Virus record (IMG/VR): IMGVR_UViG_3300034683_000626
Coordinates: 1-27,336 of that record
Reading direction: 5' to 3' (one strand)
Origin: a virus
Length of the DNA: 27,336 nucleotides
Part shown: positions 5,443 to 19,668 of the stretch, piece after piece
How positions within the stretch are numbered: the stretch's first letter is position 1
Layout: each line of letters starts with the position of its first letter
Position numbers and translations under genes: made by a program
Notes under the pieces: model-generated
The model's database searches: none
Told to the model about the DNA's origin: nothing
The model's input: the letters and a program-made list of their open reading frames with translations, nothing else

Positions 5443-6015
5443 TTATACTTTTGTGACGCTGGTGATTCGTCCACCACTATCCACGGTGTAGTTGTATGTC
5501 GCTGTTGTTCCGTCTGCGTATTCAATATAAAAACTCATCATATCCACCGTCAAAGTGGATACTTCCTTCAAGAGAAGCTCCGAGAAAATGTTGTCAAGGG
5601 TAATGCTCGTGATTCTTCCTCCACTGTCGGTGGTGTACTGGTACTGGGCATGGTACTGATGGGTATCTCCCTTCTCAACGGTATAGGTCACATCAATGGC
5701 GGTCTCTGTCACCACCAGATTGGAAACGATGGTATAGGAAACTCCCAGATCATTCACCTGTGTTTGAATGTCATCCACTGAGCTTCCCACATTATTTAAA
5801 GAACTCTCGATCCGGTAAAAGGTATCTGAAATGCTGGGTCTGTATCTTCCGACCTCTACCCGGATGTTGTAGCGGTAGAATGGATTGTATTCCAGGGAGA
5901 TGATTCTTGTCTTCACGTTGATTCCCAGGGGATTAAAAACAATCTGTACATTATCGCCTACTGAAAGATCCAGAAGTTTAAAAAAGGAAATATCATAAGA
6001 GGCAGAATTCTCCCA
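5443..6015 (-). pseudogene. C-terminal fragment of a phage tail endopeptidase or minor structural protein, cut at its 5' end
   Basis: The frame is open and protein-like from 6015 (WENSASYDIS, then LDLSVGDNVQIVFNPLGI) down to the stop at 5443. The part reading VGDNVQIVFNPLGINVKTRIISLEYNP matches the end of prophage tail endopeptidase proteins (siphophage baseplate/tail tip). A GTG at 5916 could head a 157-aa ORF, but the sequence upstream is plainly coding and lacks an SD, so I read this as a truncated gene. Immediately upstream an in-frame TAA at 6016-6018 lies in AT-rich DNA of different character. The C-terminus holds an internal duplication: YTTDSGGRITSITL and YTVDSGGRITSVTK, about 50 residues apart. 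Confidence 0.75.
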
Positions 6016-6167: not shown

Positions 6168-6248
6168 ATGAAGAGATACTATGGACCGTATGATGAGCTA
6201 CCAGATGATGTAAGTGAAGAGGAATTTATAATAATAATTGACGAATAA
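6168..6248 (+). CDS. 26-aa acidic mini-protein with a strong ribosome-binding site
   Basis: ATG 6168 sits 6 nt after AAAGGAGG and opens 26 codons: MKRYYGPYDELPDD, then an acidic and isoleucine-rich end finishing IIIIDE. It faces opposite to its neighbours and is followed directly by a terminator hairpin. A second overlapping frame (ATG 6125 or 6143, reading MEKLKEELHEEI, stop TGA 6191-6193) contains the SD, so a leader-peptide arrangement is possible. No family is recognised. It may be a genuine micro-ORF or a remnant left at the seam. Confidence 0.4.
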   Translation: MKRYYGPYDELPDDVSEEEFIIIIDE

Positions 6249-6280
6249 AAATGAGCCCTTTTATGGGCTCATTTGCTTTT
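6249..6280. terminator. Bidirectional intrinsic terminator
   Basis: Perfect stem ATGAGCCC (6251-6258) / GGGCTCAT (6265-6272) with loop TTTTAT, extended by two A-T pairs. A run of A on the left and TTTGCTTTT on the right give U-rich tails both ways. It ends the mini-ORF from the left and the HicB-like/exonuclease operon from the right. Confidence 0.8.
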
Positions 6281-6311: not shown

Positions 6312-6584
6312 TCAGACAACCTCTAGCATCTCCATTATCTTGCTTTCATCATCCAGATTCAGAAGAATATTATTAATCAGCAACTGTTGTTTGACATTTA
6401 AAACACCTGAGAATACTTCTATATTATCATCATAGTCCTTGGCAAACTCCTTAGCTCCCTCAATCATATTAGATACAGCCTCTTCTTTAGTAGTTCCTTC
6501 CCCGCATATCTGTGGAACGATTGTATTATAGGATGTGTAGACCTGCAGTTCTTCGTCAAATTCAACTATATTTATATCTTCCAT
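6312..6584 (-). CDS. HicB-like (antitoxin-fold) small protein
   Basis: A 90-aa protein. The first half shows the HicB pattern: a short beta strand (VEFDEELQVYTSY), a PQICGEG turn, then TKEEAVSNMIEGAKEFAKD, corresponding to the G-x-T-xx-EA-xx-N helix of HicB antitoxins. No HicA toxin ORF lies next to it; its operon partner is the exonuclease homologue 23 nt upstream. The C-terminal half (LNVKQQLLINNILLNLDDESKIMEMLEVV) has no obvious DNA-binding motif. GGGGAG precedes ATG 6584. It may be a stand-alone HicB-fold protein repurposed to bind the neighbouring protein or RNA (inference). Confidence 0.6.
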   Translation of the reverse strand: MEDINIVEFDEELQVYTSYNTIVPQICGEGTTKEEAVSNMIEGAKEFAKDYDDNIEVFSGVLNVKQQLLINNILLNLDDESKIMEMLEVV

Positions 6585-6607
6585 ATAAATTACTCCCCTG
6601 CCCCTCT

Positions 6608-7201
6608 CTAAGCCTCTATCCCCTCTTGCCCCTTATAAGAGATACTTTGTATCAGCTGATAAGCTATAAGGGCCTCTACCCTTGCTCTAGTGCCTCTCTC
6701 ACTGTCATACTCAATGTTTTCCTCTCTTGCTGCCTCAAGTATGCTCTTGTATTTCTTCCTACTCCAATCCTTATCGTACTCATCCTTTATCTCTGAATAA
6801 TTCTCCATAATACAGAATATATCCTCTGTGTAATTAAGAGGACTTTCAAGGTTATACTTCTGGCTGGTCTGTCTAATGATCCTGGCTCCAATATCAGCAT
6901 TGTAGATGCAAACAACCTTACCCTCGACAAGCTCCAACAGCTCTGTATATATGCTCAGATAGGAAGGCTCATCAACAAGGTCATTAAAGCTTATTCCATT
7001 AATCTTATGTGCCTGTTCAGATACAGTAACAGTAGGTCTTATAAGCTGATCCATTAGGATATTGCCATCCAGGTCAACAAGGCAAACCTCGATAATCTCA
7101 TCAAGCTTTCCCTCTCCTGTTGTGGCCAAGCCTAATATGAGTGTGTCTTTGTTAAGGATATTCTCAAATCTCCAAATAGCAAGGTCCCTATCTTCTGTCA
7201 T
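6608..7201 (-). CDS. DEDDh 3'-5' exonuclease homologue with missing catalytic residues
   Basis: A 197-aa protein with the DnaQ-like exonuclease fold: ExoI strand LILGLATTG at 21-29, then the DEIIEVCLVDLDGNIL strand, the INGIS segment, the CIYNADIGARIIRQT ExoII region at 98-112, and a C-terminal ExoIII-like helix near 171-176. Active family members read LILDxETTG, YNADFD and HxxxxD. Here the positions are Gly24 for Asp, Ala26 for Glu, Gly105 for Asp, and probably Thr171/Glu176 for His/Asp. The frame is intact and has a good SD (AAAAGGAG), so it looks maintained as a non-catalytic nucleic-acid-binding protein rather than decayed. It is first in a two-gene operon with the HicB-like protein. Confidence 0.75.
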   Translation of the reverse strand: MTEDRDLAIWRFENILNKDTLILGLATTGEGKLDEIIEVCLVDLDGNILMDQLIRPTVTVSEQAHKINGISFNDLVDEPSYLSIYTELLELVEGKVVCIYNADIGARIIRQTSQKYNLESPLNYTEDIFCIMENYSEIKDEYDKDWSRKKYKSILEAAREENIEYDSERGTRARVEALIAYQLIQSISYKGQEGIEA

Positions 7202-7283: not shown

Positions 7284-7312
7284 CGAAAAAATAGCCCATG
7301 ATAGGGCTATTT
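7284..7312 (-). terminator. Intrinsic terminator downstream of the tyrosine recombinase
   Basis: Perfect 9-bp stem AAATAGCCC (7289-7297) / GGGCTATTT (7304-7312), loop ATGATA. In the leftward direction it is followed by further T residues (TTTCG). It closes the long leftward operon that ends with the recombinase. Confidence 0.8.
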
Positions 7313-7390: not shown

Positions 7391-8335
7391 TCAGTATTCC
7401 AGCTTGTTCATCTCTTGTTTCTTAAGTTCATTGCTTATTACATGTGAATATATATCCAGTGTCGTACTTGTATTTGAATGTCCTAATATGTCGCTTAAAG
7501 CTCTCAAATTCACATTTGATTGAATAGCATAGCTGGCAAATATATGTCTTAGGGAATGTGCTGTTATGTTCTTCTCTATCCCCGCCTTTTTACAAGAGTT
7601 TTTAACTATCTTAAGGACATTTCTTGCAGTCATTGGACTATCCTTTAACCCTGTCTGTGGGTTTACCCTCTCACTTCTAAACACATAGTCAGACTTTACA
7701 TTATAGTCAGCATTGTGTAGTTTCTCAATAATGTCTCTAAAGTTGTATAGGCTATCCTTTACCTCTTGCCTTAGTGGAACGATCCTCTCCTTGTTGCCCT
7801 TGCCAAGTATCCTAATCTCGTTATTTATAAAGTCTATATCAGAGAACTTGACATTTACAACCTCGCCTCTTCTAGTGGCAGTATAAAGCATAAAGATAAT
7901 CAGAGTGAGATTCCTAGCCTTTGGATATATGTTATAACCCTTGGCTTTCTTTAGTTCATCTGTTAGGTGGTTTATCAGCTGCTTTATCTCCTCTGGCTCA
8001 AGAATATCAATTTGCTTTCTGTTGTTCTTAAGATTCTTTATATAATGAGAGAAGTCTTCCTTAATATAGTCTCTCTCATATAGGAAAGAAATAAAGGACC
8101 TGATCCCTGACCTCTTGGTGTTAATGCTGCCAATCTTAAGCTCACCACTTAAAGTATCAATATATTCCATTGTGGCATCCTTAAACTCAAACTCTCCCTC
8201 ATATGTATCCTTAATAAATGAAAGGAAGTCATTAAGGCAGGTATTATAGCTAATGATGGTATTCTTTGATTTTCTATCTGATTTAAGTTTTTTCTTGTAT
8301 TTCTCTACATAGCCATGAAGCTTTCTATGATCCAT
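7391..8335 (-). CDS. Tyrosine recombinase / site-specific integrase
   Basis: A 314-aa XerC/D-type recombinase. The N-terminal SAM-like core-binding domain spans about 1-100, with catalytic residues in the C-terminal domain: Arg155 in TATRRGE, Lys179 in GKGNKER, His260 and Arg263 in HSLRH, His286 in LGHS, and nucleophile Tyr296 in LDIYSH. All are intact, so it should be active. It has no long arm-binding N-terminal extension. ATG 8335 follows AAGGAG. It is the last gene of the leftward operon that starts near 16039 and is followed by direct repeats and a terminator. With the two serine recombinases this makes three integrases from two unrelated families in one window. Confidence 0.93.
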   Translation of the reverse strand: MDHRKLHGYVEKYKKKLKSDRKSKNTIISYNTCLNDFLSFIKDTYEGEFEFKDATMEYIDTLSGELKIGSINTKRSGIRSFISFLYERDYIKEDFSHYIKNLKNNRKQIDILEPEEIKQLINHLTDELKKAKGYNIYPKARNLTLIIFMLYTATRRGEVVNVKFSDIDFINNEIRILGKGNKERIVPLRQEVKDSLYNFRDIIEKLHNADYNVKSDYVFRSERVNPQTGLKDSPMTARNVLKIVKNSCKKAGIEKNITAHSLRHIFASYAIQSNVNLRALSDILGHSNTSTTLDIYSHVISNELKKQEMNKLEY

Positions 8336-10927: not shown

Positions 10928-11794
10928 TTAGAAACAAGCCTTACAAGGAACATATCCACTTGCAGCTGCATGATCCTCGCTATCAAAGACTATGATATTG
11001 TGCTCTGCTATCTGTCCGTCATGGGTATAGCCCTTGATGTGGTACTTGTCTGAGTTTACACTTCCAATAAGAACCAAGCCGGATGTTTCCTTACTTGAGG
11101 CGGGATCACCCTTACTCTCTCCCCACAATCCAACTCCATTATCTCTGGCCACCCTCTGCAGGTCTGTAAAGACATCGACATACTTTACATTTGGCGGATA
11201 GGTTGCAACTTGAGCATACCCTTTTTCAAGTAGTATCTTATTAACCATCTCTCCATCAATATACGCATATGCTAACAACCTCCCGTATTGGTCCCTTTCC
11301 TCTACATCAAACTCCAAGGCTACATATGCATCTTTTAGGAGCTCTTTGGTGAAGTTTGATGCTACCTTCCCCTCTTCTGTGTTTCTGCTCTCATCAGCGT
11401 GTACGCTTTCAGGAGTGTCTATTCCAATTAGCCTAACAGCTTCATTATTGCCATAATAATCTATTTCAAAGGTGTCTCCATCTCTTACATGAGTTACCTT
11501 GAATGTCTCTTCCTCTTGTACCTCTTCTATTTCCTCAACCTCTTCTACTTCTTTTGCCTCTTTTGCCTCTTCCTCATGTACTTCTTCGACCTCTTGTACT
11601 TCCTCTACCTCTTGTGTTTGCTCTGTCTCAACTGGCTCCTGAGCCTCTTTAAATGGCTCTTGTTCAGATACGCTAGTCGATTCCTCATTGATCTTTCTCG
11701 ATAGTTTCTCCCTAAACTCAGACTCGTTACCAGAACAGCCTGTCACAAGTATAAAAGATAATATTATTACTATTATATATAGTAGTTTTTTCAC
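10928..11794 (-). CDS. Lipoprotein thermonuclease (SNase family) with an EV-rich linker
   Basis: A 288-aa predicted surface lipoprotein. GTG 11794 (after GGGGTGG) begins MKKLLYIIVIILSFILVTGC, a lipoprotein signal with lipid-bearing Cys20. A low-complexity Glu/Val/Lys stalk covers about 50-100. The staphylococcal nuclease domain follows: DGDTFEI, RLIGIDTPES and ERDQYGRLLAY contain the metal-binding Asp and catalytic Arg/Glu/Arg. The C-terminus (KYHIKGYTHD to GYVPCKACF) resembles the small metal-binding module common in secreted nucleases, but the usual first Cys after YH is absent. It would digest DNA outside the membrane, perhaps for nutrient recovery or exclusion of incoming DNA (inference). 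Confidence 0.85.
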   Translation of the reverse strand: MKKLLYIIVIILSFILVTGCSGNESEFREKLSRKINEESTSVSEQEPFKEAQEPVETEQTQEVEEVQEVEEVHEEEAKEAKEVEEVEEIEEVQEEETFKVTHVRDGDTFEIDYYGNNEAVRLIGIDTPESVHADESRNTEEGKVASNFTKELLKDAYVALEFDVEERDQYGRLLAYAYIDGEMVNKILLEKGYAQVATYPPNVKYVDVFTDLQRVARDNGVGLWGESKGDPASSKETSGLVLIGSVNSDKYHIKGYTHDGQIAEHNIIVFDSEDHAAASGYVPCKACF

Positions 11795-11808
11795 CAGTAC
11801 CACCCCAA

Positions 11809-11997
11809 TCAATACATTATGTTGCTGGTTAACTTCCTGTTACTCTCCTTTGGTAATTTCCCCAGTTGTTCCTTATGGCCACATACACACCTATAACTGT
11901 AGCCTGTGGCAGAATCCCCTTGGATCTTGACCTCTCTCTTGCATACTTGACACTTACCCTCTGTCGTTTCTCCATTGTCCATACCAAAACAAACCAT
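11809..11997 (-). CDS. Small zinc-ribbon protein
   Basis: A 62-aa protein with CQVCK and CVCGH about 18 residues apart, a four-Cys zinc site, flanked by basic residues. AGGAGG lies 10 nt before ATG 11997. It sits 9 nt after the sigma4-alphaCTD gene, so it is probably in the same operon. Function unknown. Confidence 0.6.
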   Translation of the reverse strand: MVCFGMDNGETTEGKCQVCKREVKIQGDSATGYSYRCVCGHKEQLGKLPKESNRKLTSNIMY

Positions 11998-12006
11998 ACT
12001 CCTTTA

Positions 12007-12633
12007 TTACCTCCTAAGTTTTAATCCGTATTTACTAAGTTCCTCCACTATTTCCTCTATCGACTTGTCCCCCATGCCTTGTATCTTTAGCAGATCGTAT
12101 TCAGATACCTCAATTATCTTTCCAACAGTATCTAGTCCAGCTCTCCTAAGCAGATAATATGGTCTGGCACTAAGATTTAGTTCCTCAATGGGTTTCTCCA
12201 TAAGGGCTGAATATCTTGCTAGTTCAGATATATCACTATCACTGGACTCATCACCAACCAATAAATCATAAGCTCTTTTAAGGTTGTCCAACTCCCCTCT
12301 AATCTGATACAATTCCTGCTTAACATCAAGCATTCTCTTAAAGGGAACACCCTCATACATGGCCCTTCTACTAGGATGCTTTAGCTTTCTTATTGCTCTT
12401 ACAATAATCTGTCTTATTCTTTCCTGGGTTACTCCGTAAATCTCACCTATCTTTGAGTAAGTAAAGCCATCAAGATACCTTAGCTTAAGAATTTCCTTCT
12501 CCCTATCCATAAGAGTATCAAGGGCATTATAAAAGCCTTTAAGATAACTCATTTCAACCTTATCTTCATCTCCTTGGATCTCCAACAGGAGATTAAAGGG
12601 ATATGTCTTTAGTAGATGTTCAATATTACTCAT
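12007..12633 (-). CDS. Sigma-region-4 protein fused to an RNA polymerase alpha-CTD-like domain
   Basis: A 208-aa predicted transcription factor. Residues about 36-90 (MDREKEILKLRYLDGFTYSKIG, then VTQERIRQI) form sigma70 region 4, the helix-turn-helix that reads the -35 box and binds the RNAP beta flap. A helical linker runs about 100-145. Residues 148-208 (IEELNLSARPYYLLRRAG, then the KIQGMGDKSIEEI helix-hairpin-helix) match the alpha-subunit CTD. Arg156 and Lys190-Ser191 align with the DNA-contacting Arg265 and Lys298-Ser299 of E. coli alpha, while the Asn268 position is Tyr. Sigma region 2 is absent, so it cannot melt a promoter alone and more likely co-opts host RNAP. Its start overlaps the previous gene by 8 nt. 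Confidence 0.8.
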   Translation of the reverse strand: MSNIEHLLKTYPFNLLLEIQGDEDKVEMSYLKGFYNALDTLMDREKEILKLRYLDGFTYSKIGEIYGVTQERIRQIIVRAIRKLKHPSRRAMYEGVPFKRMLDVKQELYQIRGELDNLKRAYDLLVGDESSDSDISELARYSALMEKPIEELNLSARPYYLLRRAGLDTVGKIIEVSEYDLLKIQGMGDKSIEEIVEELSKYGLKLRR

Positions 12634-13171
12634 GGTCTTCCTCCTTCTTAAATCCCAGGTTTAGTCCCAACAGCCTACCTCTAAGCTCACTTATATGGGC
12701 AAGGGTTAGGATTTTGTTGTCTTTGAAATACTCTTCTGTTTCCTCAATTATATCTCCAATGGTCCTAAAGCCACATTTGGAAAGTCTCAAGAATATCCTT
12801 GTACTAATATCAAGGCACTCAATGGGTGAAGATAAGAGTTCGTCTCTATCCCTGATTTCCTTTAGGGCAAGGTACTCTTCGCTTTCCTCATACTCTGGCC
12901 TGTGAATGACAGGCTCCCCATCATCAGAGGCATGTATCAAGACAAATTTTAGGTTTACATCATCCACCAGGAACAAATCATCGAACTGTCTTCCAATGGC
13001 CATGATGGGTTTCTTCCCATATATTACACTTATATAGAGATTATCATCAAGGCTATCCATTATCTTTCCTTCCAATTCCTCTTGAATTGCCTTTTTCAGA
13101 TAATCAATAGGAAACCCGCCTTTGAGACATTCTCTTTTCGCCTTTGTGCTAAACCTAACGTCAATCATCAT
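12626..13171 (-). CDS. Protein with a C-terminal alpha-CTD-like domain, coupled to the sigma4 gene
   Basis: A 181-aa protein. Residues about 117-173 (IECLDISTRIFLRLSKCGFRTIGDI, ending LRGRLLGLNLGF) follow the alpha-CTD pattern of IEELDLSVRSYNCLKRAG.TVGDL and ..L..LGL.F, with the Arg at the Arg265-equivalent position kept. The N-terminal 110 residues (KGGFPIDYLKKAIQEELEGKIM, then YISVIYGKKPIMAIGRQFDD) are not recognised. Two ATGs (13171 and 13168) follow GGAGG; 13168 has the better spacing. The stop overlaps the start of the next gene by 8 nt, implying coupled translation and probably joint action on transcription. Confidence 0.6.
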   Translation of the reverse strand: MMIDVRFSTKAKRECLKGGFPIDYLKKAIQEELEGKIMDSLDDNLYISVIYGKKPIMAIGRQFDDLFLVDDVNLKFVLIHASDDGEPVIHRPEYEESEEYLALKEIRDRDELLSSPIECLDISTRIFLRLSKCGFRTIGDIIEETEEYFKDNKILTLAHISELRGRLLGLNLGFKKEEDHE

Positions 13172-18778: not shown

Positions 18779-19015
18779 TTAGACTAAATGTTTCTTTAAG
18801 GTTTCAATTTCTCCATTCTCAGTTAACAGTTTTACTGCCCAATTGTAAGCTGAATCATGTAAAGCAATAGGGTGTTTTAATATTATTCTTTCCATATCGC
18901 TATTCTTTACCAGATCTTCAGCTTCAGATATGGACTTATTAAACCTCACTATCAATTCTTTTGTAGTATTGATGGCTAACAAGTGAACATCTTTTTTTAT
19001 CCTTCGCCTTTTCAT
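18779..19015 (-). CDS. Small partner of the DUF3990 protein (possible antitoxin)
   Basis: A 78-aa protein with a basic start (MKRRRIKKDVHLLAINT), then helical segments (KELIVRFNKSISEAEDLVKNSD) and a HDSAYNWAVKLL segment. ATG 19015 overlaps the DUF3990 stop as TAATG, and GGAGGTGA lies inside that gene, so the two are tightly coupled. DUF3990 genes are often paired with a small DUF3791-type gene; this one has the right size and place but I cannot confirm the family. An immunity or antitoxin role is inference from the arrangement. Confidence 0.6.
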   Translation of the reverse strand: MKRRRIKKDVHLLAINTTKELIVRFNKSISEAEDLVKNSDMERIILKHPIALHDSAYNWAVKLLTENGEIETLKKHLV

Positions 19016-19572
19016 TAACACTCTATCACCTCCAAAATTTCTATACAATTTATTGCTTCTTTTGTGTGTACTGACAATTGGTTGTAGCCATTGTAGGCTT
19101 TTATTTCAGATGGGTATAATGATTGAATCCCACCGTCCGCTACTGGACCGTAAACCCAATCATAAAGATGGATTGTACCGCCACTTCTATTTTCAACAAC
19201 GAATTCTTTCCATCTAAGACTATCAACTGTATATATTTGCTTGTTTAACCTCTCGAAACACAGTATATCATTAATTCTAAATGCAATAACTATGGGTTTC
19301 ATTCTCATTCTTTGTTCTAAAAAATCATCAACTGATTTATTCATCTCACACAACAATTGCTTTATTGGTCTAGGATGTCTGGCAGTATATTCCGCCCACT
19401 CTTTTGCTTGATTAAAGTTATCAACTGTCATGTAAAATCCATTGCCAAAATCAGAATCTACAATCTCTCTATTCACAATACTTATACCCTTGTTGACAAT
19501 GTGTTCAACATAAAAATCAATTGTCCCATGGTATAACACTGACTTGCTGTCAAGATTAAACTCTAATTGCAT
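19015..19572 (-). CDS. DUF3990 protein, predicted ADP-ribosyltransferase-like
   Basis: A 185-aa protein. It opens with VLYHGTIDFYVEHIVNKGI and continues with DFGNGFYMTVDNFNQAKEWA, the DUF3990 signature, related to ADP-ribosyltransferase folds (H-Y/F-E type): YHG binds NAD and DFGxGFY forms the next strand. The C-terminal part has VYGPVADGG and CIEILEVIEC. If active it would modify a protein or nucleic acid with ADP-ribose, but this is not shown. ATG 19572 follows AGAAGGTG; the upstream frame to 19629 is rejected. It has its own promoter and ends at the shared terminator, so it forms a self-contained cassette with the small gene downstream. Confidence 0.75.
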   Translation of the reverse strand: MQLEFNLDSKSVLYHGTIDFYVEHIVNKGISIVNREIVDSDFGNGFYMTVDNFNQAKEWAEYTARHPRPIKQLLCEMNKSVDDFLEQRMRMKPIVIAFRINDILCFERLNKQIYTVDSLRWKEFVVENRSGGTIHLYDWVYGPVADGGIQSLYPSEIKAYNGYNQLSVHTKEAINCIEILEVIEC

Positions 19573-19591
19573 AATGCACCTTCTTTCGAAA

Positions 19592-19620
19592 ATATTATCA
19601 TAATAGTATGTTAATATCAA
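19592..19620 (-). promoter_or_regulatory. Promoter of the DUF3990 cassette
   Basis: On the minus strand, TTGATA (19615-19620), a 17-nt spacer, and TAATAT (19592-19597) with an extended TGA. It lies about 20 nt before ATG 19572. Confidence 0.65.
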
Positions 19621-19668
19621 GAAAAACACACTCGCATCTCTGCCTAATATAAATCAAACTCTGCACTT

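Follow-up and report, generated by a model that had tools for sequence, protein, structure and literature searches.

A DnaQ-like protein with all five catalytic residues replaced, encoded with a HicB-like protein beside an integrase gene in a viral record

The material analyzed was an IMG/VR virus record of 27,336 bases, and the full record is referred to here as the window. Two co-oriented genes on the minus strand are separated by a gap of 23 bp. The upstream gene (6608–7201) encodes a 197-aa protein which, by its reading frame, profile matches, alignment, and structure model, has a DnaQ-like/DEDDh fold with the residues GAGTE in place of DEDHD in its active site. The downstream gene (6312–6584) encodes a 90-aa protein assigned by profile and homology to the HicB-fold, C-terminal half of the PHD_like antitoxins (PF12910). 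The next gene upstream of the pair is that of a tyrosine integrase (7391–8335, minus strand). A hairpin scan revealed a terminator-like structure on either side of the pair: one at 7289–7312 (minus strand), after the integrase gene and 5′ of the pair, and a bidirectional one at 6249–6274, 3′ of the pair and 60 bp from the 90-aa gene. SD-like sequences precede both genes, and the intact SD, frame, and terminator of the original prediction were thus recovered. The promoter claimed with them was recovered in part: TTGACA is present upstream, but a good −10 element at the normal distance is absent, and the scanner reported no strong promoter. A 26-codon ORF with a strong SD (6168–6248, plus strand) is convergent with the pair and ends at the shared terminator.

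The 197-aa protein scored 32.6 bits against RNase_T (PF00929; Pfam cut-off 24) and fitted PHROG_192, 'DNA polymerase exonuclease subunit', with an E-value of 7e-18. Its nearest relatives were exonucleases of a Brevibacillus plasmid (35–37% identity), Vibrio phage VP882, and phage 186 (Orf81). Judged from these sequence matches, it is a member of the phage 186 Orf81/PHROG_192 family of DEDDh exonucleases, with which it shares the fold, the length, the conserved scaffold columns (28–35% identity), and the location among mobile-element genes; the examined known members have DEDHD, whereas the window protein has GAGTE. The phage 186 record annotates Orf81 as a non-essential protein whose function is unknown. 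An AlphaFold2 model built with 48 relatives as input had a pLDDT of 95.4 and a pTM of 0.90, and a Foldseek search of the PDB with this model matched Pol III epsilon, DinG, ExoX, and RNase T. Since active relatives steer such a model, it indicates compatibility with the fold and is no independent proof. Taken with the Pfam score, the confident model and the PDB matches agree with the exonuclease fold proposed originally. The best fold and profile matches were the exonuclease domains of E. coli Pol III epsilon, PolC, and DinG; in contrast to these, the window protein has neither a metal ligand nor the catalytic His and stands alone, with no polymerase or helicase as partner in the window.

Alignment located the replacements in all three exonuclease motifs. 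Codons 24–26 (7124–7132, minus strand) encode Gly-Leu-Ala in place of Asp-Thr-Glu of motif Exo I; at codon 105 (6887–6889, minus strand), GGA puts Gly where motif Exo II has its second catalytic Asp; and codons 171–176 (6674–6691, minus strand) have Thr and Glu at the positions of His and Asp in motif Exo III. Of the 102 aligned relatives' rows, some few being duplicates, 99 had D/E/D/H/D at the five catalytic positions, and G24/A26/G105/T171/E176 was found in the window protein alone. The three remaining rows were a Priestia plasmid protein with DEFRD, one with DEDHG, and one whose frame ended before Exo III. In E. coli Pol III epsilon, the five residues correspond to D12/E14/D103/H162/D167. 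The alignments with epsilon and with the relatives bear out both the residues named in advance and the claimed loss of the active site. Three pocket positions, T25, L30, and H68 (epsilon T13, M18, and H66), are lost as well, with Asn68 standing where epsilon has His66.

Two acidic residues were considered as parts of a rebuilt site. Asp103 is also present in many active members (IYNADYD) and is no substitute for the lost ligands; Glu30 was rejected because it sits in place of a base-contacting residue. With a GAGTE site, the protein belongs to the fold family, yet it should not be named an active DEDDh exonuclease: from what is established for DEDDh enzymes, its cutting activity is almost certainly gone. 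The Priestia megaterium plasmid relative with DEFRD (L006:1156-2049) carries an extra N-terminal domain and probably represents a second, independent loss of activity.

With the protein alone as query, scans of IMG/VR and GTDB genomes found no close relatives. A profile then yielded 80 loci in IMG/VR, and in each of them the active site was intact or almost so; some bias of this profile scan is possible, as one of its two patterns covers Exo I, though dead letters were admitted there too, and the second pattern (DEIIE) is independent of the active site. A pattern of the dead Exo II motif had no match in IMG/VR. With tblastn against phages and plasmids (41 and 2989 records, respectively), the best identity was 34%, and the aligned proteins were intact except for that of Priestia. 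The exonuclease was absent from 42 records of sibling prophages, which resemble the left part of the window. Four matches were obtained in 398 Bacillota genomes, intact wherever the motif was readable, and none in genomes of further orders and one class. Overall, IMG/VR, the sibling prophages, and the aligned relatives yielded no orthologue sharing this dead site. In two Bacillota genomes (L023:667-1992 and L024:1411-3003), an exonuclease of this family with an intact site is followed by a membrane segment and a repeat-like C-terminal region.

The 90-aa protein matched positions 60–133 of PF12910 PHD_like with an E-value of 1.9e-5 and 25.1 bits, slightly under the cut-off of 27. Nine loci in 7 of the 398 Bacillota genomes matched it, with E-values down to 9e-8; no relatives were found in phages, plasmids, or IMG/VR. 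These bacterial relatives are proteins of 140–190 aa with an additional N-terminal PHD-type half, and most of them adjoin a small HicA-type gene. When the small neighbor proteins were scanned, three of four matched HicA_toxin weakly (E-values 0.0004 to 0.03, under the cut-off), and the fourth had no match. The 90-aa protein aligns to the C-terminal half of these antitoxins: its ORF begins at the HicB-like half, and the N-terminal PHD (DNA-binding) half is absent. Given the relatives with this half and HicA-type neighbors, the protein looks like the toxin-binding half alone. A single-sequence structure model was poor (pLDDT 46.7), and the HicB fold is supported by homology, not by structure. 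In contrast to the PF12910/HicA pairs, the locus also has no toxin gene: no HicA gene was found beside the 90-aa gene, and a scan of another ten small ORFs in the window brought up none either. A HicB-like partner without HicA, as first proposed, is consistent with all of this. Searches of genomes, phages, plasmids, and IMG/VR revealed no second locus with the exonuclease and HicB-fold gene pair.

The region of the window from 3.3 to 6.0 kb had 68–89% DNA identity to about 80 other IMG/VR loci. Similarity to these sibling prophages ends sharply inside a tail gene, at 6012–6014 in nearly all of them; a few end slightly earlier or reach 6037 weakly. The tail gene that is cut at this junction runs on in the siblings, and no sibling match continues past 6100. 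An 8-base sequence, GGGAGAAT (minus strand; 6007–6015), is shared there. Position 6014 lies 0.3 kb from the gene pair and 1.4 kb from the integrase gene; with the integrase so near, the arrangement looks like one element inserted in the tail gene of another, which would put the pair in the usual cargo position. The identical crossover region expected beside the shared bases was not seen at the junction, and a chimeric contig at 6014 is possible. No relatives of the integrase were found in genomes at an E-value of 1e-30 or in IMG/VR.

Several other features were observed in the window. Between 20310 and 26645, AGGAGGATGATGAGAATG (minus strand) recurs at gene starts in eight near-identical copies; this repeated box, a ribosome site with stacked start codons, is common to genes of the right half. 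The region 12007–13171 contains a sigma factor gene whose product has a C-terminus that reads like the RNA polymerase alpha C-terminal domain, and adjoining it, a gene whose product matches RNA_pol_A_CTD weakly. The gene at 10928–11812 encodes a protein of the thermonuclease type that has a lipoprotein-like signal and a long linker rich in Glu and Val, and the one at 19015–19629 a DUF3990 protein matching several PADLOC candidate-defense models (PDC-M13, PDC-M10). Scans of the window for Rfam families and tRNAs gave no hits.

The state of the 197-aa gene could reflect retention of an inactive protein or degeneration, in which drift removed the activity and the frame is not yet broken. Among 48 relatives, 35 columns were conserved at ≥80%. 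All 7 active-site columns (24, 25, 26, 68, 105, 171, and 176) were lost in the window protein, and 21 of the 28 others were kept (Fisher p 0.0005). In active relatives, 0 to 11 of the 35 columns are lost, never more than one of them from among the seven. Compared with consensus codons, the seven active-site codons differ by at least 11 base changes. When neutral change was simulated at 0.2 to 0.5 substitutions per site, the level implied by 11 changed bases of 21, the frame stayed open with a probability of 0.03 to 0.002, which serves as a guide only, the seven codons having been picked after the fact. Codon use equals that of neighboring genes (0.153 vs. −0.048 ± 0.044 expected from base composition). 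Degeneration would fit a single example with intact relatives and a long branch (5.71 changes per column, second longest of 79, with unresolved placement in the tree), a branch length that would also suit relaxed constraint, and the two residues missing from the Priestia protein indicate that losses do occur in this exonuclease family. We nevertheless consider it rather unlikely, as the frame is open despite multi-base changes in several active-site codons, codon use is normal, the scaffold columns are preferentially kept, and the downstream gene and terminator are intact. The open frame, the multi-base changes, and the fitting codon use together make it more likely that the activity was lost long ago and the gene then retained than that decay is recent. 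Thus, the earlier suggestion that the protein was retained agrees with its open frame, element-like codon use, and mostly kept scaffold; close intact homologues with signs of fresh decay, which would have spoken for the opposite, were not found, the nearest intact ones being 35–37% identical and the frame undecayed. With a single sequence and no close relative found, we infer selection for retention from these features.

With middling confidence, we regard the 197-aa protein as a retained pseudoenzyme with a protein-binding role, encoded beside the integrase, and its HicB-fold partner as a protein that most likely neutralizes or senses HicA-type toxins. On this view, the 197-aa protein descends from a DEDDh 3′–5′ exonuclease of the phage 186 Orf81 type that lost the ligands of both metal ions and the general-base histidine long ago. 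The inactive protein, presumably expressed as accessory cargo next to the integrase, would have been kept for a non-catalytic, most likely protein–protein, role. For example, it may occupy a partner or site otherwise used by an active DEDDh exonuclease, be it the host's or that of a rival element, and such occupation would be a dominant-negative or scaffold role. The HicB-fold protein, as the toxin-binding half of an antitoxin, would act on toxins encoded elsewhere. With one example at hand, we infer these functions, and a functional link between the two proteins is suggested solely by their adjacency.

The original prediction had offered a 3′-end sensor, a decoy, or a regulator. A dead domain that still holds single-stranded DNA or RNA 3′ ends, shielding or sensing them, would be in line with the kept fold and with the neighbors of active relatives, which are rolling-circle replicase, recombinase, or filamentous-phage replication genes and make ssDNA the probable ancestral substrate; DEDD-dead DinG also retains weak ssDNA binding (PMC12525004). 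However, T25, L30, and H68 of the pocket are gone along with the metal ligands, and the protein has a net charge of −17 (pI 4.44), compared to a median of −7 for its relatives, 92 of 95 of which are less acidic; such acidity makes nucleic-acid binding unlikely. In B. subtilis DinG, the D10A E12A substitutions alone abolished degradation and weakened ssDNA binding ~37-fold, though the helicase domains of DinG contribute to binding too (PMC12525004). A 3′-end binder is therefore unlikely in our estimation, the sensor is not supported, and the lost pocket and the charge are the reasons to prefer a protein-binding role. A decoy or regulator could stand if it acts on proteins. The pair could also be a two-gene toxin–antitoxin or anti-defense unit, with the pseudo-nuclease in the place of the toxin and bound by the HicB-fold protein. 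Co-oriented genes 23 bp apart with terminators on both sides, a position beside the integrase, and the binding of small toxins by HicB-fold proteins would suit such a unit, but it is highly improbable: the supposed toxin has no catalytic residues, its gene order and size are unlike those of HicA, no second locus was found, and two strongly acidic proteins (the 90-aa protein has a pI of 4.05) are an unlikely pair by charge. A broader extension of the protein-binding reading, which we hold to be very unlikely, is that the pair forms an accessory module disarming host or rival defenses without enzyme activity, one protein blocking the partner of a DEDDh nuclease and the other neutralizing HicA-type toxins.

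DnaQ-like domains with a disrupted active site are known inside DNA polymerases, namely PolB2, PolA2, and many Pol I (PMC12926913). As in those, the domain has been kept and its active site disrupted, whereas the window protein is separate, small, and located on a mobile element. The DEDD diDNases encoded by genomic islands of Clostridia and Actinomycetes (PMC11706625) likewise come from DEDD-type nuclease genes on Gram-positive mobile elements, but those are active DEDDy NrnC-like dinucleases, in contrast to the dead DEDDh-type protein described here. In the literature, we found no report of a separate mobile-element DnaQ-type protein with all five residues replaced. The reach of one example is limited; even so, automatic labels such as '3′-5′ exonuclease' may be wrong for whole genes, and if the 197-aa protein is retained for a non-catalytic role, it would serve as a clean natural experiment on what, apart from substrate, the exonuclease scaffold binds.
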